Source of the DNA: Lachnospiraceae bacterium AM93-12TA
GTDB lineage: Bacteria; Bacillota; Clostridia; Lachnospirales; Lachnospiraceae
Direction of reading: 5' to 3'
Assembly (NCBI GenBank): GCA_027698105.1
Contig: JAQERH010000017.1
Coordinates: 1-62,253, forward strand
DNA: 62,253 nucleotides
Positions 12,054 through 62,253 of this stretch are shown one piece after another; position 1 is the first letter of the stretch; every line of letters begins with the position of its first letter. The position numbers and the translations under genes are program-made. The notes beneath the pieces are model-generated. The model was not told the origin of the DNA. It ran no database searches and worked only from the letters and a program-made list of their open reading frames with translations.

Positions 12054-12315
12054 AAAACATATTTTCTTTTCCGGCTGGGTACAGGGAGTGGGCTTTCGCT
12101 ATCGCGCCCTGTACGCGGCCAGGGGAATGGGTCTGACCGGCTGGGTGCAGAACCTTTGGGACGGCCGGGTGGAGATGGAAGTTCAGGGAGAACCGGAAAA
12201 GATTGAACGGCTGATTGCGCGGCTGAAGGAAGGAACCTTTATCGTTATCGATTCCATGACTATAGCCGACGTACCCTTAAAAAACGATGAGAGAGAATTC
12301 CGGGTGTTCAGCTGA
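12046..12315 (+). CDS. Acylphosphatase
   Basis: An 89-aa acylphosphatase that hydrolyses carboxyl-phosphate bonds. The signature VQGVGFRYRALYAARGMGLTGWVQN holds the phosphate-binding Arg and the catalytic Asn. ATG 12046 follows GGGAGGAGGGAATC and overlaps the last codons of the Nudix gene. Its end overlaps the stop of the convergent xdhC gene by 8 nt. Confidence 0.92.
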   Translation: MVRKHIFFSGWVQGVGFRYRALYAARGMGLTGWVQNLWDGRVEMEVQGEPEKIERLIARLKEGTFIVIDSMTIADVPLKNDEREFRVFS

Positions 12316-13303: not shown

Positions 13304-13424
13304 ATAGAGTACCTCCTGAGCCGTAAGGCGAGTGTTTGCAAACGGCAGATAAAAAATAATAGGGATTGTCCGGAGAGCAGAGTCAGCTGATTCATCTGTC
13401 ATGCCTGTGTACTGCCGCTGTTTC

Positions 13425-15135: not shown

Positions 15136-15146
15136 ATGCTGCCTCC

Positions 15147-15983: not shown

Positions 15984-15994
15984 AAGTATCCCTC

Positions 15995-16978
15995 CTATGG
16001 ATGCTGGTTTTCGCCTGCAGTCTGCTTTGTACCAGGCGTTTCCGGCCTGTGTCCGCAGTCCATGACAGAGCCTCGCAGCAGGGACAGGCCGTGGGGCAGC
16101 TGATCCAGAAAAACGTCCATGCCCTCCATACACGCCTTCGGGCTGCCGGGCAGATTGACAATCAGGGTTTTTCCACGGATCACAGATACAGCCCGGCTTA
16201 ACATGGCCCGTCTGGTGATTGTCATGCTGGCTGCCCGGATAGCTTCGGCGATTCCTGGGGCAGGGCGCTCGGCCACTGCCAGCGTGGCCTCCGGAGTAAT
16301 GTCCCTGGGGGAAAAACCGGTTCCTCCTGTAGTCAGAATTAAATCAGGCTTTCTCTGATCGCAGAGGCGGATCAGCTCTTTTTCCAGCGCCGTCCGGCTG
16401 TCGGGAAGAATCAGACGTTCTATGATCTGGTATCCTTCTTCTTCAAGGCGTTTTTCAATGGCAGGGCCGCTCTCATCCTCCCTTTCCTCGGAAGAGCAGC
16501 GGTCCGACAGAGTAATGACGGCGGCCTGGAAGGGAAGAGGCTCCTTCCTGGAAACGACAGACATCTGGTCACCGACAGAGATGGTTCCAGACTCCAGCAC
16601 TTTGGCGAATACCCCCTCCCTGGGCATAATGCAGTCGCCCATTCTGTGGTAGATGGCACAGTGGCTGTGGCATTCTTTTCCTATTTGTGTGATTTCCAAC
16701 AGCACATCGCTGCAGCGCAGCCAGGTTCCCACTGGGAGGGAGGAAAAGTCAATTCCCTCTACCACCAGGTTTTCCCCGAAATCCCCAGGACCTACGGCGG
16801 CGCCTTTTTCATTAAAACGGGCAATCTTCTCTGCACTTAAAAGGCTCACCTGACGGTGCCAGTGGCCGGCATGGGCGTCTCCCTCAATTCCCCAGTCTGT
16901 TTCAAACCATCCGCTCTGTTCGTTGGTTTTCTGAATGCCCCGGACAGGGCTTTTGCATACGGCTCGTACCGTTCCCAT
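15995..16978 (-). CDS. MOSC domain fused to MogA/MoaB-type molybdopterin adenylyltransferase
   Basis: Two molybdenum-cofactor modules in one 327-aa chain. Residues 1 to about 145 form a MOSC domain (DAHAGHWHRQVSLLS, GDFGENLVVEGID, and a conserved Cys near GKECHSHC), a fold linked to Moco sulfur chemistry. Residues about 155-315 are MogA/MoaB-like (AAVITLSDRCSSEEREDESG, LTTGGTGFSPRDITPEAT, IVNLPGSPKACMEG), which adenylates molybdopterin. The ATG follows an AGGAGG-type site. It lies between moaA and modA in the leftward operon. Confidence 0.9.
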   Translation of the reverse strand: MGTVRAVCKSPVRGIQKTNEQSGWFETDWGIEGDAHAGHWHRQVSLLSAEKIARFNEKGAAVGPGDFGENLVVEGIDFSSLPVGTWLRCSDVLLEITQIGKECHSHCAIYHRMGDCIMPREGVFAKVLESGTISVGDQMSVVSRKEPLPFQAAVITLSDRCSSEEREDESGPAIEKRLEEEGYQIIERLILPDSRTALEKELIRLCDQRKPDLILTTGGTGFSPRDITPEATLAVAERPAPGIAEAIRAASMTITRRAMLSRAVSVIRGKTLIVNLPGSPKACMEGMDVFLDQLPHGLSLLRGSVMDCGHRPETPGTKQTAGENQHP

Positions 16979-17005
16979 AAATATTCCTCCAAGTGATATT
17001 TCATT

Positions 17006-17968
17006 TTATCCGCCGATTTGGCTCATATAGCGATGTTCACTGATTTCATCGGGCTGAAGAAAGCAGTGAGCCTTAGGCTTATTTCTGACAGCCTCCTGAA
17101 ACAGGGCCAGCAGTTCTTTTTCATTTCCCGATTTCAGGGCAGGCGTCAGGTCAATACTGTCTTCGTAGCAAAGACAGGGTTTTAACTGGCCGCCGCTGGT
17201 AAGCCGGATCCGGTTGCAGCTGGAGCAGAACGAGTGGCTGACTGCTTCAATAAGCCCTACAGTCCCCAGAAATCCAGGCGCTTTCCAGTAAACAGCAGGG
17301 CCGTTGCCCCTGGACTCTGCTACAGGGGAGAGAGTTGGCCATTCTGCTTTCAGGCGGGAGAGAGCCAGGCTGCAGGAGCAGGCTGCCGTTTTCTGCCCTC
17401 CCAGAGGCATCTGCTCGATAAAGCGCACGTCTACAGGCAGGGAGCAGGCCAGCCGGGCCAGAGGAATCAGCTGATCTTCTGTCTCAGAAAGCAGAACTGC
17501 GTTGACTTTTGTGGGGAGCTTTTCAGAACAGTTTTTGACAGCTTCCAGTACCTGGCTGACAGGGAAATTCCTCCGTGTGATCTGGCGAAACTGCTCCTCA
17601 TTAAGAGTATCCAGGCTGATATTTATAGCGTCCAGACCAGAGTCCAGGAGTTCGTCCAGATATCTGGAAACAAGAAGTCCATTCGTTGTCATGGTAACCT
17701 GGCTGATACCTGGAATTTCTTTGAGCTGCCGGATGAGATCCGGGCAGCCTGGACGGCATAAAGGCTCTCCTCCTGTGATTTTAACAGCCCGTATTCCCAG
17801 ACTGGCAGCTGCCCTGACGGCGGCCGCGATCTCGTCAAACGTCATGAGATAGTGGGAAGAGCTGGAATCCCCGGCTGTTTCCGGCATACAGTAGCGGCAT
17901 CTTAAATTGCACTGTTCTGTAATGGAAACCCGCAGATAGTCAATGGTTCTTCCAAAGGAATCACGCAT
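17006..17968 (-). CDS. moaA: GTP 3',8-cyclase MoaA (radical SAM)
   Basis: First enzyme of molybdopterin synthesis, converting GTP to 3',8-cyclo-GTP. The radical-SAM Cys20, Cys24 and Cys27 are in [15 protein letters not shown], and GGEPL follows. The second cluster that binds GTP is in [21 protein letters not shown]. The chain ends in Gly-Gly, which the enzyme needs. Length 320 aa. The start overlaps the moaC stop by 8 nt, so the two are coupled. Confidence 0.95.
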
Positions 17969-18473
17969 GGGAATCCTCCGTCCTGCTGTCTTCCTGGTTT
18001 ACAGTAAAGGAGAAATCGCCACTTTTTCCGCCGTGCTTTTCCATTAAGTGAATTTCCTCTATTACCATTCGTTTATCCATGGCTTTGCACATGTCGTAGA
18101 TCGTGAGGAGGGCAATGCTTACCCCTGTCAGAGCTTCCATCTCTACCCCTGTCTGCCCGGCACATTTGACGGTGCAGACGGTCTCCACCCCTGGAAGCTC
18201 TGGCAGCAGGTGGAAGGAGACAGCAGCTTTCGACAGGTTGAGACGGTGGCAGAGAGGAATCAGGTCAGCAGTCTGTTTTGCGCCCATGATTCCGGCAATC
18301 TGTGCCGTACCCAGTACGTCTCCTTTTTTTGCAGTTCCGGCCTCCACAGCCAGGTAGCATTCCCGGCTCATGCGGATGCGGCCGCAGGCAGAGGCAGTCC
18401 GGACCGTGGAGTCCTTCTGGCTTACATCTACCATTACAGCGTTGCCTTCCTGATCAATGTGTGTAAAATTCAT
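17961..18473 (-). CDS. moaC: Cyclic pyranopterin monophosphate synthase MoaC
   Basis: Converts the MoaA product to cyclic pyranopterin monophosphate. Family motifs are [39 protein letters not shown] and [23 protein letters not shown], followed by the catalytic-loop [12 protein letters not shown] 18473 follows GGAGGC; the upstream ATG 18491 sits on the ribosome site. 170 aa, normal for the family. Confidence 0.95.
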
Positions 18474-18497
18474 GTTTTGCCTCCTTATCATTGTGAA

Positions 18498-19523
18498 TCA
18501 GACGCCCTTTCCAAATCCGCAGTTAGGGAAATGGCATTCCGGACAGGAAAGGCAGAGCCCGCCATGGCCCAGCCCTGCCAGCCACTGGGCAGTTACAGGC
18601 ACGTCTGCCAGAAGCCTTGGGAGAACCAGGTCAAAAATAGTCCGTCTGGCATACATGACACAGCCGGGAAGGCCGCAGACAGGCCGTCCGTCCGGCAGAT
18701 AGGAGACCAGAAACATAGCGCCAGGGAGAACGGGAGCGCCGTAGCTGATAATGGATGCGCCGGAATTTCGTATGGCGGAAGGCGTTCTGTCATCCGGATC
18801 TACACTCATGCCTCCTGTACAGAAAATCATGTCAATGCCCTGGTCAGCCATAGCCTGGATGGCTCGGGAAATATCTTCTTCCCTGTCGTCACAGATTTTA
18901 TGGGCAGCCATGGTACAGCCGTATTCAGCCAGCTTTTCTTCGATTACCGGGGTAAAGGTATCCTGGATCAGCCCGTGGAATACCTCGCTGCCTGTAGTTA
19001 CCACGCCAAAGCTTTTCTGCTTCAAAGGGATCAGGGAAAAAAGAGGTTCCTGTCCTGCCGCCTGTCTGGCCTGCTCCATGGCTTCCTTTTGAATGACAAG
19101 GGGGATAATCCGGGTTCCGCAGAGACGATCTCCGGCTTTCACAGGAAAGCCTCCGGCCCTGGAAGCGATCATCATCTCCCCCAGAGCGTTGATTCGGCGA
19201 AGCCGCTCCGTGTCAGCCAGAAAGAGACCATCATACTCGGCAGTCAGCTCAATTTTTCCTTCCTTGGGTTCAGAAGCTTTCATGCCGGGACCCTGGCAGA
19301 GCTGGCAGAGAATTTTGGCTGCTTCATTTTCGTGGAGCATGGTTTCGTCGTTTTCCCAGATGTAGATGTGTTCCTTTCCCACACTTAAAAGCACCGGAAT
19401 ATCCTCCGGCCGGATGATATGGCCCTTCCGGAATACAGCGTCCTTGGTGACACCCTTAATAATCTGCGTAATGTCATGGCAGAGCACCTGCCCTACCGCG
19501 TCCTCTGTCCGCATCAGCTTCAT
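18498..19523 (-). CDS. MoeA-like molybdopterin-binding protein with a Cys-rich tail
   Basis: A 341-aa MoeA/MogA-fold protein: VTTGSEVFHG and DMIFCTGGMSVDPDDRTPSAI are the molybdopterin-binding blocks, and LPGCVMYARRTIFDLVLPRLL closes the domain. It is about 70 residues shorter than classical MoeA and lacks the C-terminal MoeA domain IV. Instead the chain ends in CLSCPECHFPNCGFGKG, a four-Cys motif that looks metal- or cluster-binding. ATG 19523 follows CAGGAGGTC. It is the first gene of the leftward Moco operon. Confidence 0.85.
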   Translation of the reverse strand: MKLMRTEDAVGQVLCHDITQIIKGVTKDAVFRKGHIIRPEDIPVLLSVGKEHIYIWENDETMLHENEAAKILCQLCQGPGMKASEPKEGKIELTAEYDGLFLADTERLRRINALGEMMIASRAGGFPVKAGDRLCGTRIIPLVIQKEAMEQARQAAGQEPLFSLIPLKQKSFGVVTTGSEVFHGLIQDTFTPVIEEKLAEYGCTMAAHKICDDREEDISRAIQAMADQGIDMIFCTGGMSVDPDDRTPSAIRNSGASIISYGAPVLPGAMFLVSYLPDGRPVCGLPGCVMYARRTIFDLVLPRLLADVPVTAQWLAGLGHGGLCLSCPECHFPNCGFGKGV

Positions 19524-19740
19524 AAAAAACGACCTCCTGAAAAATACATGTCTGACGATATTATAGCATAGATGTCCCATGCCGGACAGCCGTTATTTTT
19601 TCAAAAGATGAACGCTTCTTGCTGCTAAAAAAGGAGGGAAAGGTCAGATAATTGCCCTTGAGATAGCCAAAGGAACCAGGCTGTGATATACTGACGATGT
19701 AAATGAAACAGGAAAAACAGAAAACTGCATTGGAGGATAT

Positions 19741-20547
19741 ATGGATTTATATACGTGGTATCAATGGCTTGCCTTTTTTTATTGCTACAGCTTTCTGGGA
19801 TGGATATTTGAATCGTTTTATGTTTCAGCCAGAGAGCGGCATCCGGTAAACAGGGGCTTTTTAAGGCTTCCGCTGCTTCCTCTGTATGGAAGTGGCGCAC
19901 TGATGATGCTGATCGTTTCCAGGCCATTTCAGGATAGTCTCTTTCTTACTTGGCTGTCAGGCTTTGCAGGGGCAACTCTTCTGGAATATGTAGTCGGATG
20001 GGCAATGGAGCAGTTATTTAAGATACGATACTGGGATTACAGCCGCCAGAAATTCAATCTTCACGGTTATATCTGTCTCAGTTCCTCTATTGCCTGGGGA
20101 TTTCTGACAATCTTTATGACTCATGTGATTCACAGGCCTATTGCAAAGCTTATCTGCGGAATTCCAGTTTTACCGGAACTGTGTCTGGTGTCAGCTGTGA
20201 CGGTCGTTTTTCTCTGGGATACTTCTGTATGCATGAGAGCAGCCCTGGATCTCGGACGTTCGCTGGAGGCGGCAAACCGAATCCGTCAGGAACTGGAGGA
20301 TATCAGAGTCCAGACAGCTCTGCTGAAGATGGATGCAGAAGACAGAATTTCAGAAAAACGCGCAGAACTGGAAGCAGCACTTTCTGCTCTTCGAAGCAGG
20401 AGAGCAGAGTTTCTGCAGTATGCGCTGCAGGCCAATCCTTCTATGGTTTCCAAAAAATATGCAGAGGAATTAAAGGAAATGATAAAGAGCTTAGATGAAA
20501 GCAGAAAAAGCAGAACGGCAGGCAGAAAACAGGGAGGAGTACAGTGA
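19741..20547 (+). CDS. CmpB-type putative ABC transporter membrane protein with coiled-coil tail
   Basis: A 268-aa protein of the putative ABC-transporter type IV (ABC_trans_CmpB) family, common in clostridia and of unknown function. The N-terminal half has about five membrane helices and the family pattern YCYSFLGWIFESFYVS and RGFLRLPLLPLYGSGAL. The C-terminal 80 residues are a Lys/Glu/Ala coiled coil. ATG follows GGAGGATAT. The stop overlaps the GTG of the ModE-YqeB gene by 4 nt, so the two are coupled, an unexpected link to molybdenum metabolism. Confidence 0.78.
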   Translation: MDLYTWYQWLAFFYCYSFLGWIFESFYVSARERHPVNRGFLRLPLLPLYGSGALMMLIVSRPFQDSLFLTWLSGFAGATLLEYVVGWAMEQLFKIRYWDYSRQKFNLHGYICLSSSIAWGFLTIFMTHVIHRPIAKLICGIPVLPELCLVSAVTVVFLWDTSVCMRAALDLGRSLEAANRIRQELEDIRVQTALLKMDAEDRISEKRAELEAALSALRSRRAEFLQYALQANPSMVSKKYAEELKEMIKSLDESRKSRTAGRKQGGVQ

Positions 20548-21734
20548 AAAAACAGTTGAGTCTTCAGCTGATATTCCGGCTGAAAGGAGAAAATAAGGCT
20601 TTCGGCCCTGGGGCCGCCAGCCTGCTGGAGAGGGTAGAACGGTTTGGTTCCCTGAGAAAGAGCGCGGCTGATATGAGCATGAGTTACAGCAAGGCCTGGA
20701 CCATGATTAAAAACTGTGAAAGGGAGCTTGAAATTTCCCTTTTAAATAAAAAAATCGGGGGGAAAAACGGAGGAGGAGCAGAGCTGACTATGGAGGCAGA
20801 AAGCCTTTTGAAACGCTACCGGGCCTTTGAACGGGAGGCGAAAGGGCAGCTGGACGCAATGGCAGGCCGGTATTTCCCTGAATATATTGAACCATCGGAA
20901 ACAAGGCCCTGGATTCTGGTGCGGGGAGCCGGAGATCTGGCCACAGGAGTGATTCTGCGCCTGTACCACAGCGGCTTTCGGGTGGCAGCTTTAGAGTGTA
21001 GGAGTCCGTCGGCCATCCGCCGCCGCGCTTCTTTCTGTGAGGCTGTATGGACAGGGGAAACCCAGGTGGAGGGAGTAAGCTGCCGCCTGGCAGGGACACC
21101 GGGGCAGGCAGCAGAGATCTGGTCGCGGGGAGCGGTTCCTCTTCTAGTGGATGAAACAGCTTCCTGTGTCCGGGAGTTTCAGCCAGCTGCGCTGATCGAT
21201 GTGATTCTGGCAAAACGAAATCTGGGAACCAGCCGCTCTATGGCTCCGATTACCATTGGAACTGGGCCCGGATTTACCGCAGGAGCGGATGTGGACGCAG
21301 TGATAGAAACCATGAGAGGCCATTTTTTAGGGCGGGTTATCTGGGAAGGCCAGGCTATTCCGAATACAGGAATTCCAGGAGAGATAGAAGGGTTTGGCGC
21401 GGAACGGGTGATTCACGCCCCTGCAGACGGCCGGCTTTCTTTTGTAAAGGATGAGTCTGGAAACTGGATTGACATTGGAACGATTGTAAAGAAAGGGCAG
21501 ACCATTGCCATGATAGAGGGGACTTCGGTGAAAGCCTCCCTGGACGGAGTGCTGAGGGGACTCATCCGGGAAGGTTTTCCAGTGAAAAAAGGTCTTAAAA
21601 TTGCAGATATTGACCCGCGCCTGGAGCAGGCCGGGTTCTGCGGCACAGTGTCTGATAAGGCCAACGCTGTGGCCGGCGGAGTGCTGGAAGCACTGCTGGG
21701 GCTTGCCTCCCGCAGACAGATCCGCCTGTTATAG
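20544..21734 (+). CDS. yqeB: ModE-type HTH fused to YqeB, selenium-dependent molybdenum hydroxylase maturation protein
   Basis: Residues 1 to about 112 are the ModE/LysR-type winged helix (LERVERFGSLRKSAADMSMSYSKAWTMIKNCERELEISLLNKK). Residues about 122-396 are YqeB (EF2563 family), starting PWILVRGAGDLATGVILRLYHSGFRV, a protein tied to selenium-dependent molybdenum hydroxylases. The GTG start follows GGGAGGAG. The fusion puts a DNA-binding head on a cofactor maturation factor; a ModE molybdate-binding domain is absent. The end overlaps the convergent yqeC stop by 6 nt. Confidence 0.85.
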   Translation: MKKQLSLQLIFRLKGENKAFGPGAASLLERVERFGSLRKSAADMSMSYSKAWTMIKNCERELEISLLNKKIGGKNGGGAELTMEAESLLKRYRAFEREAKGQLDAMAGRYFPEYIEPSETRPWILVRGAGDLATGVILRLYHSGFRVAALECRSPSAIRRRASFCEAVWTGETQVEGVSCRLAGTPGQAAEIWSRGAVPLLVDETASCVREFQPAALIDVILAKRNLGTSRSMAPITIGTGPGFTAGADVDAVIETMRGHFLGRVIWEGQAIPNTGIPGEIEGFGAERVIHAPADGRLSFVKDESGNWIDIGTIVKKGQTIAMIEGTSVKASLDGVLRGLIREGFPVKKGLKIADIDPRLEQAGFCGTVSDKANAVAGGVLEALLGLASRRQIRLL

Positions 21735-22514
21735 CCAGGCGGAGGAACAGATCCACTCCAGGAGAAAAGAGCTGTCCTCGGAAAGACTTCCTACTTTGCA
21801 GGAAAGACCATGTTTATTCAAAATTTCTGCGGCAGCAGAGGCTTCTGTCTGAAGGACAGCCAGCGAGGCATCCAGGCGTCCCGAGTGAAACAGGCAGTCT
21901 GACTGATTGAGAAGAATCCGGATCCTGTCTTTTGTAAGGCAGACGCTGCGGCCCTGTCCCTTCGTCGTAGTGACAGAGGATACGGCGTCAAGCACGCAGA
22001 AAGCCAGCTCCTCTCCGCCGATCCTGGTATCGGGGCGCTCTTTCCAGACAGGATTCAGCTCATATCGGTGGACACAGTCCCGGACTGCCCGCCCCAGAGC
22101 AGACAGCCCGGCTGTAATGAGACAGAGATTCGTCTGAGGCGGGAGAACCGGCTCCTGATCATGGTGAAGCTTCAGAGGCAGACGGCGGGAGCCGTCTGCC
22201 TCGCAGAGGATGACAGAGGCCGTCTGAGCAGCCGCAGCCAGCAGCTCTGGCTTTATGGCAGTCATCTTTCCTTCGCGGGCCGTCCGTCCAGCGCAGACAA
22301 TCCCAGGCTTTGACAGCTCTGAGCACAGCACTTCTTCCTCTGGATCCATCAGCAGAATCCGGCTTTCCGGAGGGAGAACAGGATACATATGGGTCGTTGC
22401 AGTCAAAAGGATGGATGCTTTTTCTGCCCTGTCGGAAATCTGGCGGGCCAGTTCTCTGAGAGCGGTGGTCTTTCCGCCTGAACCGATGGCCGCTATTGTA
22501 AAAGCCTGCTTCAT
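21729..22514 (-). CDS. yqeC: YqeC, selenium-dependent hydroxylase accessory protein
   Basis: A 261-aa P-loop protein of the YqeC family. The nucleotide-binding site is IGSGGKTTALRELA near the N-terminus; VILCEADGSRRLPLKLH is the second hallmark. It is genetically linked to YqeB and to selenium-labile molybdenum hydroxylases in other genomes; its reaction is unknown. ATG 22514 lies 18 nt after the alr stop, so it is probably cotranscribed with alr, and it is convergent with yqeB. Confidence 0.85.
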   Translation of the reverse strand: MKQAFTIAAIGSGGKTTALRELARQISDRAEKASILLTATTHMYPVLPPESRILLMDPEEEVLCSELSKPGIVCAGRTAREGKMTAIKPELLAAAAQTASVILCEADGSRRLPLKLHHDQEPVLPPQTNLCLITAGLSALGRAVRDCVHRYELNPVWKERPDTRIGGEELAFCVLDAVSSVTTTKGQGRSVCLTKDRIRILLNQSDCLFHSGRLDASLAVLQTEASAAAEILNKHGLSCKVGSLSEDSSFLLEWICSSAWL

Positions 22515-22532
22515 AGAAAAATAAGCCTCCTT

Positions 22533-23669
22533 TTATCTGATGTAGACACGTCCAATCCGATCCGGCCTTTGGGAGGTATAGGAGGTATACACCTGGCCGT
22601 ATTTTGACAGCTCCTGAGGAGACAGGAAGGCGTTGCCGCTGGGGGAATATCCCCAGAGCGTCACCGGATCGCCCACTTTGCAGTCAAGCCCCGTGATGTC
22701 TACAAAACACTGGTCCATGCAGGTGTCAATATAGTGGGCGCGCTGATCATTTACCAGTACCGGACCGTGGCTGCGAGCCATGGCGCACAGAATACCGTCG
22801 GCGAAGCCTACAGAGACGACTGCTATATCTGTGGGCTTTTCTGCCTTGAAAAGCCGATCATAGCTGACTGTTTCGCCTGGCTCCACATGGCGGATAAAGC
22901 TGACGGTAGTCCGCCAGGACAGCATTTCCTGCAGTCCAATGGGATTGGATCCATCGGCAATATCACTGTAGCCTAACACCAGACTGCCTGCCCGGATATG
23001 GGTGGAAAAATCCAGAGCCTCCTTGTACCACTCAGAGGCGCCGGTATTGCAGCAGTGGATATAGGACAGCTGGAAGCCGGCCTCTTTGAGCTGGGCAATG
23101 CCCTCCTTAAATACAGCGAACTGTTCCATGGTGAAAGGATCGTCCGGCGTCTCTGCCTGGGCAAAATGGGTGAAGGCGCCTACCACCTGAATATTGGGGC
23201 ACTGGTGGAGGGCGTCGATGACCTCCTGAAGCTGCTTTCCGGGCCATGCGCCGATCCGGTTCAGCCCGGTTTCGATCTTAATCTGGGCTTTTACTGTCTT
23301 TCCCTGTCTGGCAGCCTCCCTGGAAAGGGAGTGTACACGCTCCGGGGTGAACAGGGGGATCTGCATATCCCAGTGAACCGCATGGGGGAGAGTGTCGTGG
23401 AGCACGGGCCCCATAATCAGAATTTCCGCGTCAGTAATGCCGCCTTCCCGCAGAACCAGTCCCTCATAGGTCTGGGAGCAGGCCAGGGTTTTGCAGCCGC
23501 AGCGCTCTGTGAGAGTTTTTGCAATTTCCAGGGCGCCCATGCCGTAGGCGTCTGCTTTCAGCACAGGGATAATCTGGGCCGGGGAGACGAAGCGGGAAAT
23601 TTTTTTAAAGTTTTCCTCCAGAACAGACAGATTCACTTCATAGTAGGAGTTGTAGCAAGTCAAATCCAT
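22533..23669 (-). CDS. alr: Alanine racemase
   Basis: PLP enzyme making D-alanine for peptidoglycan. The cofactor lysine is in PVLKADAYGMGA; the second catalytic base, Tyr, is in VSYDRLF; the phosphate loop is seen in IGYSDIADGSNPIG-like sequence. 378 aa. ATG 23669 follows GGAGGAATC; the upstream ATG 23702 is in the leader hairpin. The N-terminus NSYYEVNLSVLEENFKKI is typical. VanT- or Alr-type variants cannot be separated by eye. A + strand terminator-like hairpin lies 26 nt upstream. Confidence 0.9.
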   Translation of the reverse strand: MDLTCYNSYYEVNLSVLEENFKKISRFVSPAQIIPVLKADAYGMGALEIAKTLTERCGCKTLACSQTYEGLVLREGGITDAEILIMGPVLHDTLPHAVHWDMQIPLFTPERVHSLSREAARQGKTVKAQIKIETGLNRIGAWPGKQLQEVIDALHQCPNIQVVGAFTHFAQAETPDDPFTMEQFAVFKEGIAQLKEAGFQLSYIHCCNTGASEWYKEALDFSTHIRAGSLVLGYSDIADGSNPIGLQEMLSWRTTVSFIRHVEPGETVSYDRLFKAEKPTDIAVVSVGFADGILCAMARSHGPVLVNDQRAHYIDTCMDQCFVDITGLDCKVGDPVTLWGYSPSGNAFLSPQELSKYGQVYTSYTSQRPDRIGRVYIR

Positions 23670-23694
23670 AGCGAGATTCCTCCAATAAGAATTT

Positions 23695-23728
23695 AAACTC
23701 AAGATTTCGGAAAATCTTGAGTTTTTTT
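23695..23728 (+). terminator. Intrinsic terminator reading rightward, upstream of alr
   Basis: AAACTCAAGATTT (23695-23707) pairs perfectly with AAATCTTGAGTTT (23712-23724) around a CGGA loop, and seven T follow on the + strand. On the - strand there is no U-tract. No + strand gene ends within 1.9 kb upstream, so it would stop antisense or read-through transcription from the yqeB side. Confidence 0.75.
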
Positions 23729-28535: not shown

Positions 28536-29993
28536 GTGAGAGAGCTGACTCAGGATAAAGCGCCGATTTTTGAGGCGCTGGAGCGTTTTAAGCAGATGAG
28601 GGTTGTCCCCTTTGACGTGCCGGGACACAAAAGGGGAAGAGGAAATCCGGAATTAGTGAGACTGTTAGGAGAGCAGTGTGTGGGAATCGACGTGAATTCC
28701 ATGAAGCCCCTTGACAATCTGTGCCACCCGGTTTCTGTAATTGCAGAGGCAGAACAGCTGGCAGCCGAGGCGTTTGGAGCAGCCCACGCGTTTCTGATGG
28801 TGGGAGGAACCACCTCAGCTGTGCAGAGTATGATTCTGTCCGTAGTAAAGCGGGGAGACAAGATTATTCTTCCCAGAAACGTCCACAGAAGTGTGGTCGG
28901 CGCCCTGATTTTGTGCGGGGCAGTTCCTGTTTATGTAAATCCGGAATGTGATATGCGCCTGGGAATTCCGCTTGGAATGAAGGTGGAGCAGGTAGAGAGA
29001 GCCATTAAGGAGAATCCTGATGCCAGGGCAGTTCTGGTGAACAACCCGACCTACTACGGCATCTGTTCCAATCTTCGGGAAATTGTCCGGCTGGCCCACA
29101 GCCACGGAATGCTGTGCCTGGCAGACGAGGCCCATGGAACTCATTTTTATTTCGGAGAAAATCTGCCTGTATCTGCCATGGCGGCAGGAGCCGATATGGC
29201 AGCTGTTTCCATGCACAAATCTGGCGGAAGCCTGACCCAGAGCTCTCTGCTTTTAACAGGTCCGTCCATGAACGAGGGCCATGTGCGCCAGATCATTAAC
29301 CTGACCCAGACCACCAGCGGCTCCTACCTGCTTTTGTCAAGTCTTGATATCTCAAGACGAAATCTGGCTCTCAGGGGGAGGGAAGCCTTCGCCGGAGTCG
29401 TAAGGATGGCCGAGGATGCCAGAAAGGAAATCAATGCCATTGGCGGCTACTATGCCTTTTCCAGGGAGCTGATGAATGGAGACAGTATTTACGATTTCGA
29501 TGTGACAAAGCTTTCTGTCCACACCCTGGATATCGGCCTGGCAGGAATCGAGGTTTATGATCTCCTGCGGGACGAATACGACATTCAGATTGAATTTGGA
29601 GATTTGGGCAATCTTCTGGCCTACCTTTCTATCGGAGACAGGCAGCGGGATATCGAGCGGTTAGTCAGCGCTCTGGCGGAGATAAAACGCAGGTTTGGAA
29701 CGACAGGCGCTGCCATGGCAGTTCCGGAGTACATTGATCCCCAGGTGGCAGTTTCTCCCCAGGATGCTTTTTACGCAGACAAAGTGTCTCTGCCCATTGA
29801 GGAGACAGCAGGGTATATCTGCAGCGAGTTTGTCATGTGCTATCCGCCGGGGATCCCGATTCTGGCGCCTGGTGAGAGAATTACAGAAGAAATTTTGACT
29901 TACATCGCCTTTGCAAAGGAAAAGGGCTGTACCATGACAGGCCCGGAGGATCCAGATATCCTTCAGCTGAATGTCATCAAGGGAAGCCGTTAA
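28536..29993 (+). CDS. speA: Arginine decarboxylase (Orn/Lys/Arg decarboxylase, fold III)
   Basis: PLP enzyme of the aspartate-aminotransferase-fold Orn/Lys/Arg decarboxylases, 485 aa, like B. subtilis SpeA. Conserved blocks are FDVPGHKRGRGNPEL, DEAHGTHFYF and the PLP lysine in SMHKSGGSLTQSS. Arginine is inferred as substrate because an agmatinase follows in the same operon; lysine or ornithine cannot be excluded. The GTG start at 28536 follows GGGAGAGAGGAG. In the pathway it turns arginine into agmatine. Confidence 0.87.
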   Translation: MRELTQDKAPIFEALERFKQMRVVPFDVPGHKRGRGNPELVRLLGEQCVGIDVNSMKPLDNLCHPVSVIAEAEQLAAEAFGAAHAFLMVGGTTSAVQSMILSVVKRGDKIILPRNVHRSVVGALILCGAVPVYVNPECDMRLGIPLGMKVEQVERAIKENPDARAVLVNNPTYYGICSNLREIVRLAHSHGMLCLADEAHGTHFYFGENLPVSAMAAGADMAAVSMHKSGGSLTQSSLLLTGPSMNEGHVRQIINLTQTTSGSYLLLSSLDISRRNLALRGREAFAGVVRMAEDARKEINAIGGYYAFSRELMNGDSIYDFDVTKLSVHTLDIGLAGIEVYDLLRDEYDIQIEFGDLGNLLAYLSIGDRQRDIERLVSALAEIKRRFGTTGAAMAVPEYIDPQVAVSPQDAFYADKVSLPIEETAGYICSEFVMCYPPGIPILAPGERITEEILTYIAFAKEKGCTMTGPEDPDILQLNVIKGSR

Positions 29994-30039
29994 CGGAAAA
30001 TGATAAGAGAAATAGAGAAGCAGAAGAGAGGAGAACAGG

Positions 30040-30891
30040 ATGGAATACTGGTTTTCAGAGGAGCAGACTCCCAATGTGAAGCTGTCTATCCGTGTGGATC
30101 GCCAGCTTTACAGCGGAAAAAGTGAGTTTCAGCGCATTGATGTGTTCGATTCACCGGAATTCGGGCGTTTTCTGACACTGGACGGATATATGATGCTGAC
30201 AGAAAAGGACGAGTTTATATATCATGAGATGATTACCCATGTGCCCATGGCAGTCCATCCGGCAGTGAAACAGGTGCTGGTGATTGGAGCCGGAGACGGA
30301 GGAGTGATTCGGGAGCTGACCAGATATCCGGAGATTGAGCATATCGATCTGGTGGAGATTGACGAGCTGGTGGTGGAAGTGTGCAGGAAATACCTGCCTA
30401 AGACATCCTGCTGCCTGGATGATCCAAGGGTTTCCATTCACTATGAGGACGGAGTCCGTTTCGTCCGTTCCTGTGAGGACAGGTATGATTTGATTATCGT
30501 GGATTCCACAGATCCGTTTGGGCCGGGAGAGGGACTGTTTACCAGAGAGTTTTATGGCAGCTGCTTTAAGGCTCTCCATGAGGACGGCGTCATGGTAAAT
30601 CAGCACGAGAGTCCCTTTTATCCGGCTGATGCAGAGGCCTGCCAGAGGGCTCACAAAAGGATTGTAGAGTCTTTCCCTGTGAGCCGCGTATACCAGGCCC
30701 ACATTCCGACTTATCCGTCCGGCCACTGGCTGTTTGGCTTTGCCTCCAAGAAATACCACCCTTTAAAGGATTTAAAGGAGACTGCCTGGAATTTAAGAGG
30801 TCTTTCATGCCGCTACTACACGACGACTCTTCACAAGGGAGCCTTTTATCTGCCGGCTTATGTGGAGCAGATGCTGGAGGCGGTAGAGTAG
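30040..30891 (+). CDS. speE: Spermidine synthase SpeE
   Basis: Transfers the aminopropyl group of decarboxylated AdoMet to putrescine. The Rossmann core has VLVIGAGDGGVIRELTRYPE and VEIDELVVEVCRKYLP; the catalytic loop is IIVDSTDPFGPGEGLFTREFY, and NQHESPFY follows. 283 aa, standard length. ATG 30040 follows AGAGGAGAACAGG. Located between speA and speB. Confidence 0.93.
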   Translation: MEYWFSEEQTPNVKLSIRVDRQLYSGKSEFQRIDVFDSPEFGRFLTLDGYMMLTEKDEFIYHEMITHVPMAVHPAVKQVLVIGAGDGGVIRELTRYPEIEHIDLVEIDELVVEVCRKYLPKTSCCLDDPRVSIHYEDGVRFVRSCEDRYDLIIVDSTDPFGPGEGLFTREFYGSCFKALHEDGVMVNQHESPFYPADAEACQRAHKRIVESFPVSRVYQAHIPTYPSGHWLFGFASKKYHPLKDLKETAWNLRGLSCRYYTTTLHKGAFYLPAYVEQMLEAVE

Positions 30892-30941
30892 AAGCGGCGG
30901 ACTGGAAACAGCCTGATACAGAACACAGAGAGGAGATATTT

Positions 30942-31850
30942 ATGTCAGAAGAAAAGAGACAGATGCAGATCCTGCCCCCTAACATTTCCGTGTATATGGG
31001 ATTTGATGCAGAGTTTGAGCAGGCAGATACAGTCCTGTTCGGCGCTCCCTTCGATTCCACTACCTCCTTCCGGCCGGGAACCAGGTTTGCAAGTGAGGCG
31101 ATACGCCGGGAATCTTACGGCCTTGAGACCTACAGTCCCTATCAGGACAGGGATCTGGAGGACAGTCTGGTTATGGACAGCGGAGATCTGGAACTCAGAT
31201 TTGGAGATCCGAAGCAGGCGCTGGCAGATATTGAGGAGAGGACGGAGCTGATTCTGGAGGCTGGAAAGCGTCCCTTCATGCTGGGAGGAGAACATCTGGT
31301 AACCCTTGGAAGTTTCCGGGCTGTACACAAAAAATATCCAGATGCAGCCATGATCCATTTTGATGCCCACACAGATTTGAGAGAGGACTATCTGGGAGAA
31401 CCGCTGTCCCACGCCTGCGTGATTCGGCGCTGCTGGGAGCTGACAGGAGACGGAAGGATTTTCCAGTTTGGAATCCGATCCGGCGAGAGAAGAGAATTTC
31501 AGTGGGCGAAGGAACACACCTGCCTGCATCCTTTTGACTTCACAGGACTTGAGGAGACGCTGGAGCAGTTAAAGGGACGCCCTGTCTACTTTACAGTGGA
31601 TCTGGATGTGATGGATCCGTCTGTCTTTCCGGGAACCGGGACCCCGGAGCCGGGAGGCGTTACCTTTGAACAGCTGAGGCGGGCTGTGACCATGGTATGC
31701 GAGCGGGCTTATATCGCAGGATGCGATGTGAATGAATTAAGCCCCCACTATGATCTGAGCGGAGCCTCCACAGCGGCGGCCTGTAAAATTGTCAGGGAGA
31801 TGGTTTTAGCCCTTCAGAGGCAGGATCAGGAAAAGCACAAATTAACATAA
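30942..31850 (+). CDS. speB: Agmatinase SpeB
   Basis: Mn-dependent ureohydrolase turning agmatine into putrescine and urea. Metal ligands are in GGEHLVTLG, HFDAHTDLR and DLDVMDPSVFPGTGTPEPGG; CDVNELSP is the last family block. 302 aa. ATG 30942 follows GAGAGGAGATATTT; a longer frame from 30807 runs through the end of speE and is rejected. It feeds putrescine to both SpeE and the carboxyspermidine route encoded next. Confidence 0.93.
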   Translation: MSEEKRQMQILPPNISVYMGFDAEFEQADTVLFGAPFDSTTSFRPGTRFASEAIRRESYGLETYSPYQDRDLEDSLVMDSGDLELRFGDPKQALADIEERTELILEAGKRPFMLGGEHLVTLGSFRAVHKKYPDAAMIHFDAHTDLREDYLGEPLSHACVIRRCWELTGDGRIFQFGIRSGERREFQWAKEHTCLHPFDFTGLEETLEQLKGRPVYFTVDLDVMDPSVFPGTGTPEPGGVTFEQLRRAVTMVCERAYIAGCDVNELSPHYDLSGASTAAACKIVREMVLALQRQDQEKHKLT

Positions 31851-31891
31851 AAAATACAACAAAATAAAAAACAGGAAAAGGAGAAACAATC

Positions 31892-33094
31892 ATGGGAAAA
31901 GTATTGATTATCGGATGCGGAGGAGTAGCTTCTGTAGCAGTTCACAAGTGCTGCCAGAACAGTGAGGTATTTGAGGAGATCTGCATTGCCAGCCGTACAA
32001 AATCAAAATGTGATGCTTTAAAGGAGAAGCTTCAGGGAACCACCTCCGCCAAGATTACAACGGCTCAGGTAGATGCCAATGATGTGGATGCGTTAATTGC
32101 CCTGATTAACCAGGTAAAGCCGGATGTAGTCTTAAACCTGGCCCTTCCATATCAGGATCTGACTATCATGGACGCCTGCCTTGCCACAAAGACTCATTAT
32201 GTAGATACGGCCAACTATGAGCCGGAGGACACAGCCAAGTTTGAGTACAGCTGGCAGTGGGCCTACAGAGAGAAGTTTGAGGAGGCCGGAATTACAGCCC
32301 TCTTAGGAAGCGGATTCGATCCGGGTGTAACCAGTGTATTTTCGGCCTATGCCTTAAAGCATGAGTTTGACGAAATCAATTACATTGATATTTTAGACTG
32401 CAATGGCGGTGACCACGGCTACCCATTTGCTACTAACTTTAACCCGGAGATTAATATCCGCGAGGTTTCTGCTAAAGGCTCCTACTGGGAGGATGGCCGC
32501 TGGGTAGAGACAGAGCCTATGGAGATCAAGCGGGTATACAATTTCGAGGAGGTAGGAGAGAAGGATATGTACCTGCTTCACCACGAGGAGATTGAGAGCC
32601 TGGCTTTAAATATTCCGGGAATCAAGAGAATCCGCTTCTTTATGACCTTCGGCCAGAGCTACCTTACCCATTTAAAATGCCTGGAGAACGTGGGAATGAC
32701 TTCGATTGAACCGATTATGTATGAGGGAAAAGAGATTATTCCTCTTCAGTTTTTAAAGGCAGTGCTTCCGGATCCCTCCTCTCTGGGCCCGAGAACCAAG
32801 GGAAAGACCAACATTGGCTGTATTTTCCGCGGCAAGAAGGACGGAAAGGAAAAGAATTATTATCTGTACAATATCTGCGATCACGAGGAGTGCTACAAGG
32901 AGGTAGGCTCCCAGGCAGTTGCCTATACTACAGGAGTTCCGGCCATGATTGGAGCCATGATGGTTATGACAGGAAAATGGCAGAAGCCAGGTGTTTACAA
33001 CATGGAAGAGTTTGATCCGGATCCGTTTATGGATGCGTTAAACAAGTGGGGACTGCCTTGGAGAGAGTCCCATGAGCCTGTGCTGGTAGATTAA
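31892..33094 (+). CDS. Carboxy(nor)spermidine dehydrogenase (saccharopine dehydrogenase family)
   Basis: Reductively condenses L-aspartate semialdehyde with putrescine (or diaminopropane) to carboxyspermidine (or carboxynorspermidine). The N-terminal NAD(P) site is GKVLIIGCGGVASVAVHKC; ALLGSGFDPGVTSVFSAYA and DCNGGDHGYPFATNFNPEIN are typical of the CASDH branch of the Lys1/LYS9 family. 400 aa. ATG follows AAAAGGAGAAACAATC. The family assignment is supported by nspC directly downstream. Confidence 0.9.
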   Translation: MGKVLIIGCGGVASVAVHKCCQNSEVFEEICIASRTKSKCDALKEKLQGTTSAKITTAQVDANDVDALIALINQVKPDVVLNLALPYQDLTIMDACLATKTHYVDTANYEPEDTAKFEYSWQWAYREKFEEAGITALLGSGFDPGVTSVFSAYALKHEFDEINYIDILDCNGGDHGYPFATNFNPEINIREVSAKGSYWEDGRWVETEPMEIKRVYNFEEVGEKDMYLLHHEEIESLALNIPGIKRIRFFMTFGQSYLTHLKCLENVGMTSIEPIMYEGKEIIPLQFLKAVLPDPSSLGPRTKGKTNIGCIFRGKKDGKEKNYYLYNICDHEECYKEVGSQAVAYTTGVPAMIGAMMVMTGKWQKPGVYNMEEFDPDPFMDALNKWGLPWRESHEPVLVD

Positions 33095-33130
33095 GCAGGA
33101 TAAATCCGCAAAAGAAATAGAGACTGCAGA

Positions 33131-33185
33131 AAAGCTGCGTTTTTTCGGAGGAACCAGAGTATCCTTCTGCAAAGAACGCAGCTTT
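33131..33185 (+). repeat. Inverted repeat between CASDH and nspC
   Basis: AAAGCTGCGTT (33131-33141) and AACGCAGCTTT (33175-33185) are perfect 11-nt arms with a 33-nt loop. The first arm can also close a short GCAG/CTGC hairpin followed by six T, so an attenuator with two alternative folds is conceivable. Confidence 0.5.
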
Positions 33186-33220
33186 ATGTGATAGAGGAGA
33201 CATATAAAGGAGAGAAACGG

Positions 33221-34387
33221 ATGAAGAGAGCAGAAGCTGTTAAGACCCCCTATTTTCTGGTTGATGAAAGCAGACTGGTGAAAAACCTGGAGCTTTTGAA
33301 GGCGATTCAGGAGGATACAGGATGCAGAATCCTGCTGGCCCAGAAGGCGTTTTCCGGATTTTTTGCCTATCCTCTGATGGGCCGGTATCTGGCCGGAACG
33401 ACAGCCAGCGGCCTCTGTGAGGCAAGGCTCGGGAAGGAAGAATTTGGAGGAGAGACTCACGTTTTTTCTCCTGCCTACCAGGAGGATGAGTTCCAGGAAC
33501 TTTTATTGTATGCGGATCATTTTGTGTTCAATTCTCCGGCTCAGCTGAGGCGGTACGGAGAAAGGGCAAAGAGAGAGGGAAAATCTGTGGGACTCAGGGT
33601 AAATCCTGAGTGTTCCACCCAGGAGGGACATGCTATCTACGACCCTTGTGCTCCCGGTTCCCGTCTGGGAACAGTGAAGGAGCAGTTTGACGAGGAGCTT
33701 TTGCCTCTGCTTGACGGCCTTCATTTCCACACATTATGTGAGCAGAACTCCGACGATCTGGAGACTACAGTTCAGGACTTTGAAGAGAAATTTGGCAGAT
33801 ATCTGGGGCAGATGAAGTGGGTCAATTTTGGCGGCGGACACCACATTACCAGAGAAGATTATGATGTGGAACGGTTAAAGAAAATCATCCGGCATTTCAG
33901 GGAACACTATGATGTGGAGGTCTATCTGGAACCGGGGGAGGCAGTGGTTCTGAACGCAGGCTTTCTCGTTTCCTCTGTGCTGGAAACCATGAAAAATGGA
34001 ATAGATATCGCTATTTTAGACGCCTCTGCAGCCTGCCATATGCCGGATGTGCTGGAAATGCCATACCGGCCGCCGGTACGCTTTTCCGGAATGCCGGGAG
34101 AGAAGAAGTACACCTTCCGCCTGGCCGGCCCTACCTGCCTGGCAGGAGACGTGATTGGAGACTATTCCTTCGACCACCCGCTGTCAGAGGGAGAACAGGT
34201 GGTATTCGAAGATATGGCTCTCTATACCATGGTGAAGACTAATACTTTCAACGGCATGCGTCTGCCATCAATCGTGTGGAAAAACAGAGAGGGGGAGGAG
34301 ATTTTAATAAGAGAGTTCGGATACGAGGATTTTAAGGGGCGTCTTGGCTGGACAGAACCGGGCAGTTCAGGTAAAATAAAGCTGTAA
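33221..34387 (+). CDS. nspC: Carboxynorspermidine/carboxyspermidine decarboxylase NspC
   Basis: PLP enzyme of the alanine-racemase-fold decarboxylases that converts carboxyspermidine to spermidine (or carboxynorspermidine to norspermidine). The PLP lysine is in ILLAQKAFSGF; HTLCEQNSDDLE, VNFGGGHHITRED, YLEPGEAVV and GPTCLAGDVIGDY are the family blocks. 388 aa. ATG 33221 follows AAAGGAGAGAAACGG. Last gene of the polyamine operon. Confidence 0.93.
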   Translation: MKRAEAVKTPYFLVDESRLVKNLELLKAIQEDTGCRILLAQKAFSGFFAYPLMGRYLAGTTASGLCEARLGKEEFGGETHVFSPAYQEDEFQELLLYADHFVFNSPAQLRRYGERAKREGKSVGLRVNPECSTQEGHAIYDPCAPGSRLGTVKEQFDEELLPLLDGLHFHTLCEQNSDDLETTVQDFEEKFGRYLGQMKWVNFGGGHHITREDYDVERLKKIIRHFREHYDVEVYLEPGEAVVLNAGFLVSSVLETMKNGIDIAILDASAACHMPDVLEMPYRPPVRFSGMPGEKKYTFRLAGPTCLAGDVIGDYSFDHPLSEGEQVVFEDMALYTMVKTNTFNGMRLPSIVWKNREGEEILIREFGYEDFKGRLGWTEPGSSGKIKL

Positions 34388-59667: not shown

Positions 59668-60399
59668 ATGACGAAACAGGTTTCCGCGATTGTTCTGGCA
59701 GCAGGACAGGGAAAACGGATGGGAAGCAGAATTCAAAAGCAGTTTTTGGATCTGGGCGGTTATCCAGTTCTTTATTACAGTCTGAAAACCTTTGAGGAAA
59801 GCCAGGTATCTCAAGTCATCCTTGTCACTGGAGAACAGGAAATCGAATTCTGCAGGCGGGAAATTGTAGAACGATATGGATTCTCCAAGGTCAAGGCGGT
59901 GGTCGCAGGAGGAGCAGAGCGCTATCACTCTGTCTACCAGGGGTTGAAGCAGGTGTCGGCCTCTTCTGACATTGTGCTGATCCATGATGGGGCGCGCCCG
60001 TTTGTAGATACAGATATGATAGACAGAACGATCCGGGCAGCAGAGGAGTTTCAGGCCTGCGCTGCCGGTATGCTGTCTAAAGATACGGTAAAAATTGCAG
60101 ATGAAAACGGCTTTGCGGCTTCTACACCGGAACGCTCCAGAGTGTGGATGGTGCAGACACCCCAGGCGTTTTCCAGAGCATTAATCTGGAAAGCCTACCA
60201 GGCTATGATGGAGGATGAGTCACTGCAGCAGGGAGTGACAGATGACGCTATGGTTGTAGAGCGGCTGACCGGGGTACCGGTGCGGCTGGTAGAAGGTTCC
60301 TATGAAAATATGAAGGTGACAACACCGGAGGATATGGAGGTGGCTGCAGCCATCTTAAAACGCCGGGGTGGCAGAACGCTTTCTGAAACAGAGGGTTAG
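59668..60399 (+). CDS. ispD: 2-C-methyl-D-erythritol 4-phosphate cytidylyltransferase IspD
   Basis: Third step of the MEP isoprenoid pathway. The CTP loop is IVLAAGQGKRMGS; VLIHDGARPFVD and VQTPQAFSRALI are family blocks. 243 aa. ATG follows AAAGGGAGTGACGCC. The HydE-like frame begins about 24 nt after its stop. Confidence 0.94.
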   Translation: MTKQVSAIVLAAGQGKRMGSRIQKQFLDLGGYPVLYYSLKTFEESQVSQVILVTGEQEIEFCRREIVERYGFSKVKAVVAGGAERYHSVYQGLKQVSASSDIVLIHDGARPFVDTDMIDRTIRAAEEFQACAAGMLSKDTVKIADENGFAASTPERSRVWMVQTPQAFSRALIWKAYQAMMEDESLQQGVTDDAMVVERLTGVPVRLVEGSYENMKVTTPEDMEVAAAILKRRGGRTLSETEG

Positions 60400-60423
60400 A
60401 AGGTCTGAAAGGGGGCGGGGACA

Positions 60424-61527
60424 ATCGAAAGAATAGAAAAAAAGAACCAGCAGAAAAAAACAGGCAGGCCAGAATATCCGGAACAGGCGTTTTCTGCCTG
60501 TTTCAGCCGGGAACAGGAGGAAACCTGCTGTCAGCTGATTGCAGGACTGGCCCGCAAAGAGGGTTTAACCGGAGAGGAATGGAAGATTCTCCTTTCGGTA
60601 AGAACAGAGAGGACGGCTGCGCTCTTATTTCGGACAGCCAGGCGAATCAGAGAACATTTTTACGGAAAAAGAGTGTTTTTGAGAGGTCTGGTTGAGCCTG
60701 ACATTTTTTCTGGGACAGGAAATCTTTGGGAAAGCCCTGGGTATCTGACGGAACAGACGCTTCATTCAGCCTGCCAGGAAGGGTATCAGGCAGGTTTTCG
60801 CAGCTTTGTACTTCAGGTGCATCCAGAGAAAAAGTGGGAAGCAGATACATTTCTGTCAGATTTTATAAAACAGATGAAGACAGTCTGCCCTGACTGCGCA
60901 GTGACTCTGGCAGCAGGAGAATACCCGGAGAAAATGGTCCGCATGTGTTCCGAGGCTGGAGCAGATCGATATCTGTTCCGTTCTGAAACTGCCGGACAGG
61001 GATGCGGCGGCTTGCTGTGCCTGACAGATTCGAAAAGAGAGCAGAGAAAAGCATATCTGCAATTTTTAAAGAAAGACGGATGGCAGACAGGAGTGAGGCT
61101 TACTGCCGGTTCGTTTATCTGCTGTCCGGAGCGTTTGGCGGAGGAGCTTATGTTTCTTCACAGTCTGCAGCCGGAAATCGTAGAGATCGTACCGTTTGTC
61201 CCTGACTGCAGTGCTGTATCAGCAGAGGAGAAGAGGGACGCCCTGGAAATGACGCTGTACCTTATGGGGGTTATGCGTCTTCTTTTGCCCCGCGTACTTC
61301 TTCCGGTTTCGGAACATCTGGAATCGGTCATTTCAGGTGGACGGGAACTGGGACTTTTATGCGGAGCGAATGTGCTGATTCAGAAGCTGCATTCGAGTCC
61401 TGGCGGTCATGGACAGCAGCCGGACAACAATATAGCAGAAGAAAAGATGAGGCTGCGCCATTCGGTGGAAGAAATTGGATATGAGATTGTGGCAGAACGG
61501 GGAGACTGCTATGGCTTTTTTACGTAG
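60424..61527 (+). CDS. HydE-like protein lacking the radical-SAM cysteine motif; non-AUG start
   Basis: The frame is open from 60409 and aligns along its length with HydE, the [FeFe]-hydrogenase maturase: helix bundle (CCQLIAGLARKEGLTGEEWKILLS), YGKRVFLRGLVE, FVLQ, VTLAAGEYPEKM, EAGADRYLFRSETA, IVPFVP and SGGRELGLLCGANV. Where HydE has CxxxCxxC after RGxIE, this reads PDIFSGTGNLW and is about nine residues shorter; no cysteines remain there. No ATG, GTG or TTG occurs in frame before GTG 60673, which is inside the homologous region. ATC 60424, 8 nt after AAAGGGGG, is the best placed start, giving 367 aa. It may be a non-catalytic relative or a decaying gene. Confidence 0.7.
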   Translation: MERIEKKNQQKKTGRPEYPEQAFSACFSREQEETCCQLIAGLARKEGLTGEEWKILLSVRTERTAALLFRTARRIREHFYGKRVFLRGLVEPDIFSGTGNLWESPGYLTEQTLHSACQEGYQAGFRSFVLQVHPEKKWEADTFLSDFIKQMKTVCPDCAVTLAAGEYPEKMVRMCSEAGADRYLFRSETAGQGCGGLLCLTDSKREQRKAYLQFLKKDGWQTGVRLTAGSFICCPERLAEELMFLHSLQPEIVEIVPFVPDCSAVSAEEKRDALEMTLYLMGVMRLLLPRVLLPVSEHLESVISGGRELGLLCGANVLIQKLHSSPGGHGQQPDNNIAEEKMRLRHSVEEIGYEIVAERGDCYGFFT

Positions 61528-61909: not shown

Positions 61910-61938
61910 TTGACAAATGAAAAACAGCGTGATATAAT
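61910..61938 (+). promoter_or_regulatory. Downstream promoter P2 of the tRNA/rRNA unit
   Basis: Full consensus TTGACA (61910-61915), 17 nt, TATAAT (61933-61938), with A-tracts upstream. The start would fall a few bases before the first tRNA. Confidence 0.85.
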
Positions 61939-61952: not shown

Positions 61953-62038
61953 GGAGAGATATCGAAGTGGTCATAACGAGGCGGTCTTGAAAACCGTTTG
62001 TCCGCAAGGGCGCGTGGGTTCGAATCCCACTCTCTCCG
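61953..62038 (+). tRNA. tRNA-Ser (UGA)
   Basis: Acceptor GGAGAGA pairs with TCTCTCC, discriminator G. The anticodon loop CTTGAAA gives UGA. A long variable arm (TTTGTCCGCAAGGGCGCG region) marks a serine tRNA; the T arm is GTGGGTTCGAATCCCAC. No CCA is encoded. Confidence 0.96.
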
Positions 62039-62073
62039 CTCTTGATAGACAACTAAATATAAAGTGTCAATCA

Positions 62074-62162
62074 GCAGAAGTACCCAAGTGGCTGAAGGGG
62101 CTCCCCTGGAAAGGGAGTAGGTCGTTAGTAGCGGCGCGAGGGTTCAAATCCCTCCTTCTGCG
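62074..62162 (+). tRNA. tRNA-Ser (GGA)
   Basis: Acceptor GCAGAAG pairs with CTTCTGC, discriminator G. The anticodon loop CTGGAAA gives GGA. Long variable arm (GTAGGTCGTTAGTAGCGGCGC) and T arm GAGGGTTCAAATCCCTC. CCA is not encoded. Confidence 0.96.
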
Positions 62163-62253
62163 CTGGATATTCAAAGAAACAGAAGTGACTGAGAATATCA
62201 GAACCTTGAAAACTGAACAGTATGTAAAACCCTGAAAATTCTAAGAACAAAAG
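62163..62253 (+). other. Possible rRNA operon leader at the window edge
   Basis: GAACCTTGAAAACTGAACAG is a sequence often seen in clostridial rRNA operon leaders and spacers. With tandem strong promoters and tRNAs upstream, an rRNA operon may start just outside the window. Confidence 0.45.

Follow-up and report, generated by a model that had tools for sequence, protein, structure and literature searches.

The 62,253-nucleotide stretch of Lachnospiraceae bacterium AM93-12TA analysed here (contig JAQERH010000017.1, positions 1 to 62,253; hereafter the window) carries at 60424..61527, on the plus strand like all parts of the gene located below, a reading frame whose product is related to HydE over its whole length, and from which the cysteines of the iron-sulphur cluster site and further catalytic blocks are gone. 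HydE is the radical S-adenosylmethionine (SAM) maturase of the [FeFe]-hydrogenase (H-cluster), and the cysteine motif is the feature by which radical SAM proteins are normally identified. Judged from its residues, the window protein is not a radical SAM enzyme. The loss extends to a clade of relatives (collectively called pseudo-HydE here), in which columns kept from HydE remain under site-wise constraint. On balance, and with slightly better than even confidence, this gene is best regarded as a HydE-derived, non-catalytic pseudoenzyme that works by binding a partner.

Regarding descent, the first-pass annotation had proposed homology to HydE, and the HydE profile TIGR03956 run on the translation bears this out with 210.9 bits, under the curated NCBIfam cut-off of 254.6, and with profile positions 2-339 of 340 aligned to residues 39-361, i.e. 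homology along the whole chain; HydE of Thermotoga maritima is matched over residues 33-326 (E 1.3e-29). The same profile gives 194.2, 193.3 and 214.4 bits for the related protein clusters P0006, P0008 and P0001, and 529.9 bits for the canonical cluster P0010. No Pfam family, PF04055 included, matches the window protein up to an E value of 1; P0006 has no Pfam match either, P0008 and P0001 have one sub-cut-off match each, to families other than PF04055, and this latter family is matched by canonical P0010 and P0014 at 62.0 and 67.0 bits. The resemblance had been described as running up to the GANV block. It does hold that far, but the register continues beyond it to the end of the protein, across a second gap shared by the clade, at which seven residues (VRKKYLL in the canonical consensus) are gone after residue 326 (junction at 61399..61404). 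The alignments further confirm that the CxxxCxxC loop, in canonical HydE FTNYCRxDCYYCGIRR, is replaced by PDIFSGTGNLW (residues 92-102; 60697..60729), which is nine residues shorter: all nine clade rows of alignment A3 have Ser in place of Cys63 (T. maritima numbering) and lack Cys67 and Cys70 altogether.

The damage reaches well past the cysteines. With T. maritima numbers mapped through P0010, the GGED motif, which we take to be the SAM-binding motif of HydE, reads VHPE in the window (60817..60828) and VHPE or similar across the clade, and the TTALGT block reads SEHLES (residues 296-301; 61309..61326), with T268, T269 and G272 all replaced, T268 by Ser in 8/9 clade rows. Y303 is deleted in the clade and the YLLYDN lid is gone, so that GGED as well as the cavity residues T268, T269 and Y303 are replaced or deleted in 9/9 rows, D111 at GGED undergoing the milder change to Glu in every one of them. 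Glycines 226 and 272 (T. maritima numbers) are likewise Glu in all nine rows; E254 of the window protein (61183..61185), Glu in 9/9 clade rows, stands where the 37 canonical rows have an invariant glycine. The lost residues (the cysteine loop, GGED, T268/T269/Y303 and others mapped) are presumably those that bind the cluster, SAM and the substrate in HydE structures. Kept in 9/9 rows are R87, E91, Q131, T161, R182, R186, E188 and R285 (T. maritima R54, E58, Q107, T134, R155, R159, E161 and R257), and R180 of the T. maritima numbering is kept in 8/9. By 15-residue segments, the clade is most conserved in the C-terminal segment IGYEIVAERGDCYGF (residues 351-365; 61474..61518), with 14 of 15 columns invariant, followed by 66-80, 156-170 and 276-290 (12 each) and 306-320 (11); the least conserved are 96-110, i.e. 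the cluster loop (4), 186-200 (2) and 321-335 (1). A CxxC pair at residues 155 and 158, considered as a possible new metal site, is common to the six full-length rows of alignment A2, but residue 155 is Tyr in P0004 and P0005. A catalytic core dismantled to this extent speaks against any radical SAM chemistry. The earlier proposal that no 5'-deoxyadenosyl radical could be made by the known mechanism is supported.

The extent of the loss was read from a homologue search (551 matches, best 120 read) and a profile search (297 matches, best 120 read), together amounting to 174 distinct clusters. The cysteine motif is present in 162 of them, and the 12 that lack it form one group, namely P0001-P0005, 90-100% identical to the window protein (P0003 being the window's own), and P0006-P0009, P0016, P0017 and P0077, 58-62% identical to it. 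These two subclades are about 59% identical to each other. Every one of the 11 clade clusters with coverage of the loop has the nine-residue gap, and the seven-residue lid gap is common to the nine clade rows of A3. Relatives likewise devoid of the cysteines, which the first-pass annotation had suggested looking for, thus exist as 12 clusters in a single clade, and none of the close relatives within this clade has the intact CxxxCxxC that was named as grounds for abandoning the idea; the closest canonical protein found among the matches listed, P0010, is 48% identical with its motif intact. As far as the aligned residues tell, the catalytic residues are lost in the whole clade and not in one sequence, as is proper to a pseudoenzyme. 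No second, independent origin of a cysteine-less HydE was seen, all 12 motif-less clusters among the 174 read belonging to this clade. As a control, 35/35 HydE loci read from genomes have the motif, 34 by filter and L029 by reading.

In the trees, the clade receives full support (100/100) and is placed among canonical HydE of related Lachnospiraceae, this larger group being supported at 100/100 as well. Pseudo-HydE groups with P0010 at 92/85 and 90/75 in two trees, and the alternative to this grouping is not rejected by the approximately unbiased test (p-AU 0.179); the IspD tree fails to separate the four lineages. The window's own P0003, the fragment P0016 and the frameshifted P0017 and P0077 were excluded from A2, A3 and the trees, P0009 entered alignments A1 and A3 and no tree, and P0004 and P0005 entered A1, A3 and one tree only. 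L005 and L029 were dropped from that same tree by the GANV-block filter, since they read GANI and GGNV there, the motif being present in both.

In site-wise tests on the protein sequences, which took in 330 of the 367 positions, both subclades show purifying selection at the columns retained from HydE; judged from the evolutionary rate given below, this selection is relaxed. Canonical-conserved columns are invariant in the clade in 65/84 cases where they were kept on the ancestral branch vs. 10/42 where they were lost (p 9e-9). Columns that one subclade has kept are hit less often than the rest by changes inside the other, at 5/76 vs. 53/254 in one direction (p 0.003) and 10/78 vs. 93/252 in the reverse (p 4e-5), and the positions at which the two subclades differ fall in clumps along the sequence (p 0.0012). 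In a comparison of six sequences, residues 24-83 show higher conservation than the remainder of the protein in 13/15 pairs, the same in one pair and a slightly lower one in the last (P0006-P0008, 72 vs. 74%), hardly what one would expect of a stretch that went untranslated throughout the group. Besides, sequences mutated neutrally in simulation until 60% identity contain a mean of about 8 to 9 stops, only 1 in 1,200 remaining stop-free.

The scenario we favour can be put as follows. The gene descends from HydE through one long ancestral branch on which, by the alignments, the [4Fe-4S] site, GGED, the TTALGT block and the lid were lost; at protein level, the columns holding the rest of the chain have been kept under relaxed purifying selection, and the former pocket has been left to drift. 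Where still made, the product would be folded and non-catalytic, and the helical and terminal segments that stay conserved in it (66-80, 276-290 and 351-365) would serve partner binding rather than chemistry. The fold is probably kept and the pocket abandoned.

Several observations weigh against such a scenario. From the in-frame stop at 60406-60408 to the GTG at 60673 (residue 84), there is no in-frame ATG, GTG or TTG, so that the window copy would either start on a non-AUG codon (ATC 60424 or ATA 60433) or be translated from residue 84 only. The annotated proteins of P0003, the window's own cluster, and of P0004 and P0005 begin no earlier than this late start; P0001 and P0002 start at an intermediate residue, and P0006-P0008 have an N-terminus of comparable length beginning with Met. 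P0017 and P0077 are frameshifted part-way and P0016 begins just past the P0077 shift, all of which may possibly be sequencing error. The argument from stop codons is itself biased, given that protein searches favour intact frames over broken ones, and neutral change down to only 92-94% identity would leave the frame free of stops in 14-26% of cases, which makes recent decay possible. The 61 recent changes, 57 of them reachable by a single base, are not significantly conservative (p ~0.07). Regarding evolutionary rate, pseudo-HydE changes 3.0-4.8 times as fast as IspD in five comparisons, two of which use an assumed IspD partner (P0129 for P0007 and P0008); for canonical HydE the ratio averages 0.85 (0.63-1.29) over 15 pairs from the 6 genomes with both genes, at distances larger than those of the clade pairs, and for P0010 against those six genomes it is 0.85-1.29. 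The N-terminal part has a codon bias of 0.045, little more than that of off-frame readings (0.024-0.039, an intergenic stretch being negative), and the rest one of 0.079; all nine neighbours are higher (0.084-0.203), on a table trained on these same nine genes. Finally, the predicted barrel fold comes from a model built from mostly canonical rows, a model from the six clade rows alone being worthless (predicted local distance difference test score, pLDDT, 41.6).

These observations would be accounted for if the gene were a slowly decaying hydE copy, redundant or obsolete, in which catalysis was lost once the copy had become dispensable, the remaining constraint is a fading remnant and the window copy is already a pseudogene or N-terminally truncated. 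The absence of a start codon ahead of GTG 60673, the frameshifted P0017 and P0077 with the fragment P0016, the fast evolution, weak codon bias and abandoned pocket, and the sizeable chance of a stop-free frame at 92-94% identity all fit it; against it, kept columns are still spared from change in the two subclades, the stretch 24-83 is the more conserved part in 13/15 pairs, and intact frames persist at 59% identity. Decay is a close rival, clearly short of even probability, and for the window copy itself nearly as likely as a partner-binding pseudoenzyme. A new ligand-binding or catalytic function in a remodelled barrel, by way of the newly fixed acidic residues E254 and E300, would agree with ten columns at least 90% conserved in canonical HydE that carry a different, clade-invariant residue (E254, E300, D272, A163 and Y211 among them) and with T161, R182, R186 and E188 kept in 9/9 rows. 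It appears unlikely, as the lost columns are invariant in the clade in a smaller share (10/42) than ordinary variable columns (84/204), which means that there is no new constraint on the whole of the pocket.

The first-pass annotation had also thought of a scaffold or regulator in hydrogenase maturation, which would work beside canonical HydE, HydF and HydG. Descent from HydE is in keeping with this role, and so is the genome closest to the window by TsaD among those searched (G401, 94%), with its hydE-hydG-hydF row and two [FeFe]-hydrogenase-type proteins, but frame inspection finds no hyd gene in the window and, indirectly, no canonical HydE cluster among the matches listed pairs with the bearing species in closeness and abundance, which leaves it very improbable. 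Least probable, to the point of being negligible, is that an ordinary hydE suffered a local deletion or was misassembled: nothing beyond the single window speaks for it, and the nine-residue gap is found in all 11 clade clusters covering the loop, down to 59% identity. Assembly error and single-strain deletion are in fact ruled out by gaps common to independent clusters.

Concerning hydrogenase genes in relatives, G401, the closest by TsaD among the genomes searched, carries canonical hydE, hydG and hydF in a row (540.0, 949.7 and 544.2 bits, all above cut-offs) and two proteins that pass the Pfam threshold for the large subunit of [FeFe]-hydrogenase. As this row sits far from tsaD, the evidence leans towards pseudo-HydE being a relocated duplicate or older paralogue rather than a direct orthologue of P0010. 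The canonical clusters close enough to be partners, among the matches listed, are small (P0010 with 8 members, P0014 with 6, P0012 and P0013 with 3 between them) or of the G401 kind (P0011, with 119 members, 98% identical to the HydE of G401), and the pseudo-HydE clusters are large (72 member sequences for P0001-P0005, 466 for the other seven), which suggests that the bearing species are without a vertically inherited canonical HydE. That a HydE descendant with a new partner has replaced canonical HydE in a group of uncultured Lachnospiraceae, these species lacking the canonical protein altogether, is a much bolder proposition to which we give little credence. As a separate matter, P0015 looks chimaeric, its first half being near-identical to P0011 and its second half diverging, and is probably a metagenome assembly artefact.

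Searches for a genome bearing pseudo-HydE yielded none among 397 Lachnospiraceae-group genomes, 225 of which had a HydE match (listed identities 32-42%), and none among 8 closest-group genomes, 6 of which matched, the best at 48% (canonical, in G401). Two further draws of 195 and 392 genomes, partly overlapping, gave G401 alone above the strict threshold, and contig scans with a few short patterns, which are insensitive, returned either no relative or three at 35-39% identity, all with the motif. In two lineages pseudo-HydE probably lies next to ispD, as judged from one-contig clusters of the two proteins whose contigs have equal lengths (P0002/P0121, 4970; P0006/P0128, 4128). In 8/12 relatives examined, the distance from ispD to the two tRNA-Ser genes after it is some 0.1 to 0.8 kb, which leaves no room for a gene the size of hydE; the other four have no tRNA in view after ispD, G225 having ribosomal-protein-like frames there.

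Compared with known systems, the window protein resembles HydE (TIGR03956; T. maritima structures such as 3ciw and 7o1o) by homology over its length, a barrel fold as predicted by the mostly canonical model, and the eight kept residues together with the GANV block, and differs from it by the absence of CxxxCxxC, GGED, TTALGT and the YLLYDN lid, by its sub-cut-off score and by the lack of neighbouring hyd genes in the window. The methylornithine synthase PylB (TIGR03910; 3t7v), also a radical SAM enzyme with the cysteine motif, is a far weaker match than HydE. As in pseudoenzymes generally, homology to an enzyme goes along with vanished catalytic residues and conservation at other columns. No description of a HydE without the cysteines appeared among the papers listed by searches of 5.39 million open papers, most subscription-journal papers lying outside this scope. 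A clade that keeps the protein and drops the cofactor site would offer a natural experiment on the use of the HydE barrel without its chemistry. It would also be a warning for annotation, as Pfam leaves such proteins unnamed and the HydE model scores them below its cut-off. If the bearing species were indeed without canonical HydE, either they would have given up [FeFe]-hydrogenases or the H-cluster would be built without the HydE radical step; should they still make hydrogenase, the general need for that step would come into question.

At the locus itself, the frame runs without interruption from 60409 until its stop codon at 61525-61527 and comprises, at 60424..61527, 367 codons and a stop, the full length requiring the non-AUG start; the earlier claim of an uninterrupted frame is upheld, the missing conventional start having gone unmentioned. 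The part with the conventional GTG start (60673..61527) encodes 284 amino acids, without the N-terminal helices. A GGGGG at 60411..60415, 8 bases 5' of ATC 60424, is a putative ribosome-binding site. Directly upstream on the same strand lies ispD (59668..60399), identified by PF01128 on its homologues; downstream, also on the plus strand, are tRNA-Ser(TGA) and tRNA-Ser(GGA) (61953..62163, i.e. 61953-62039 and 62074-62163), preceded by a promoter-like site at 61910-61938 that belongs to this pair. Inspection of the window's frames found no hyd gene and, together with the location between ispD and the two tRNA-Ser genes, this gives no reason to assign the gene to hydrogenase maturation.

Elsewhere in the window, where names were given by inspection, a LarC-like protein at 6003-7448 bears a long His/Asp/Glu-rich repeat insert (HEHDHEHHHGEHEH...) and adjoins LarB- and LarE-like genes (5207-5971 and 7465-8391). 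The region 12308-23702 holds mostly minus-strand genes for molybdenum cofactor and transport (MoaA-, MoaC-, MoeA-, ModA/B/C- and XdhC-like), inside which a plus-strand frame (20544-21734) fuses a ModE-like N-terminus to a YqeB-like domain. At 28536-34387 stands a polyamine-type row, namely a decarboxylase followed by spermidine synthase-like, agmatinase-like, and carboxynorspermidine dehydrogenase- and decarboxylase-like genes.
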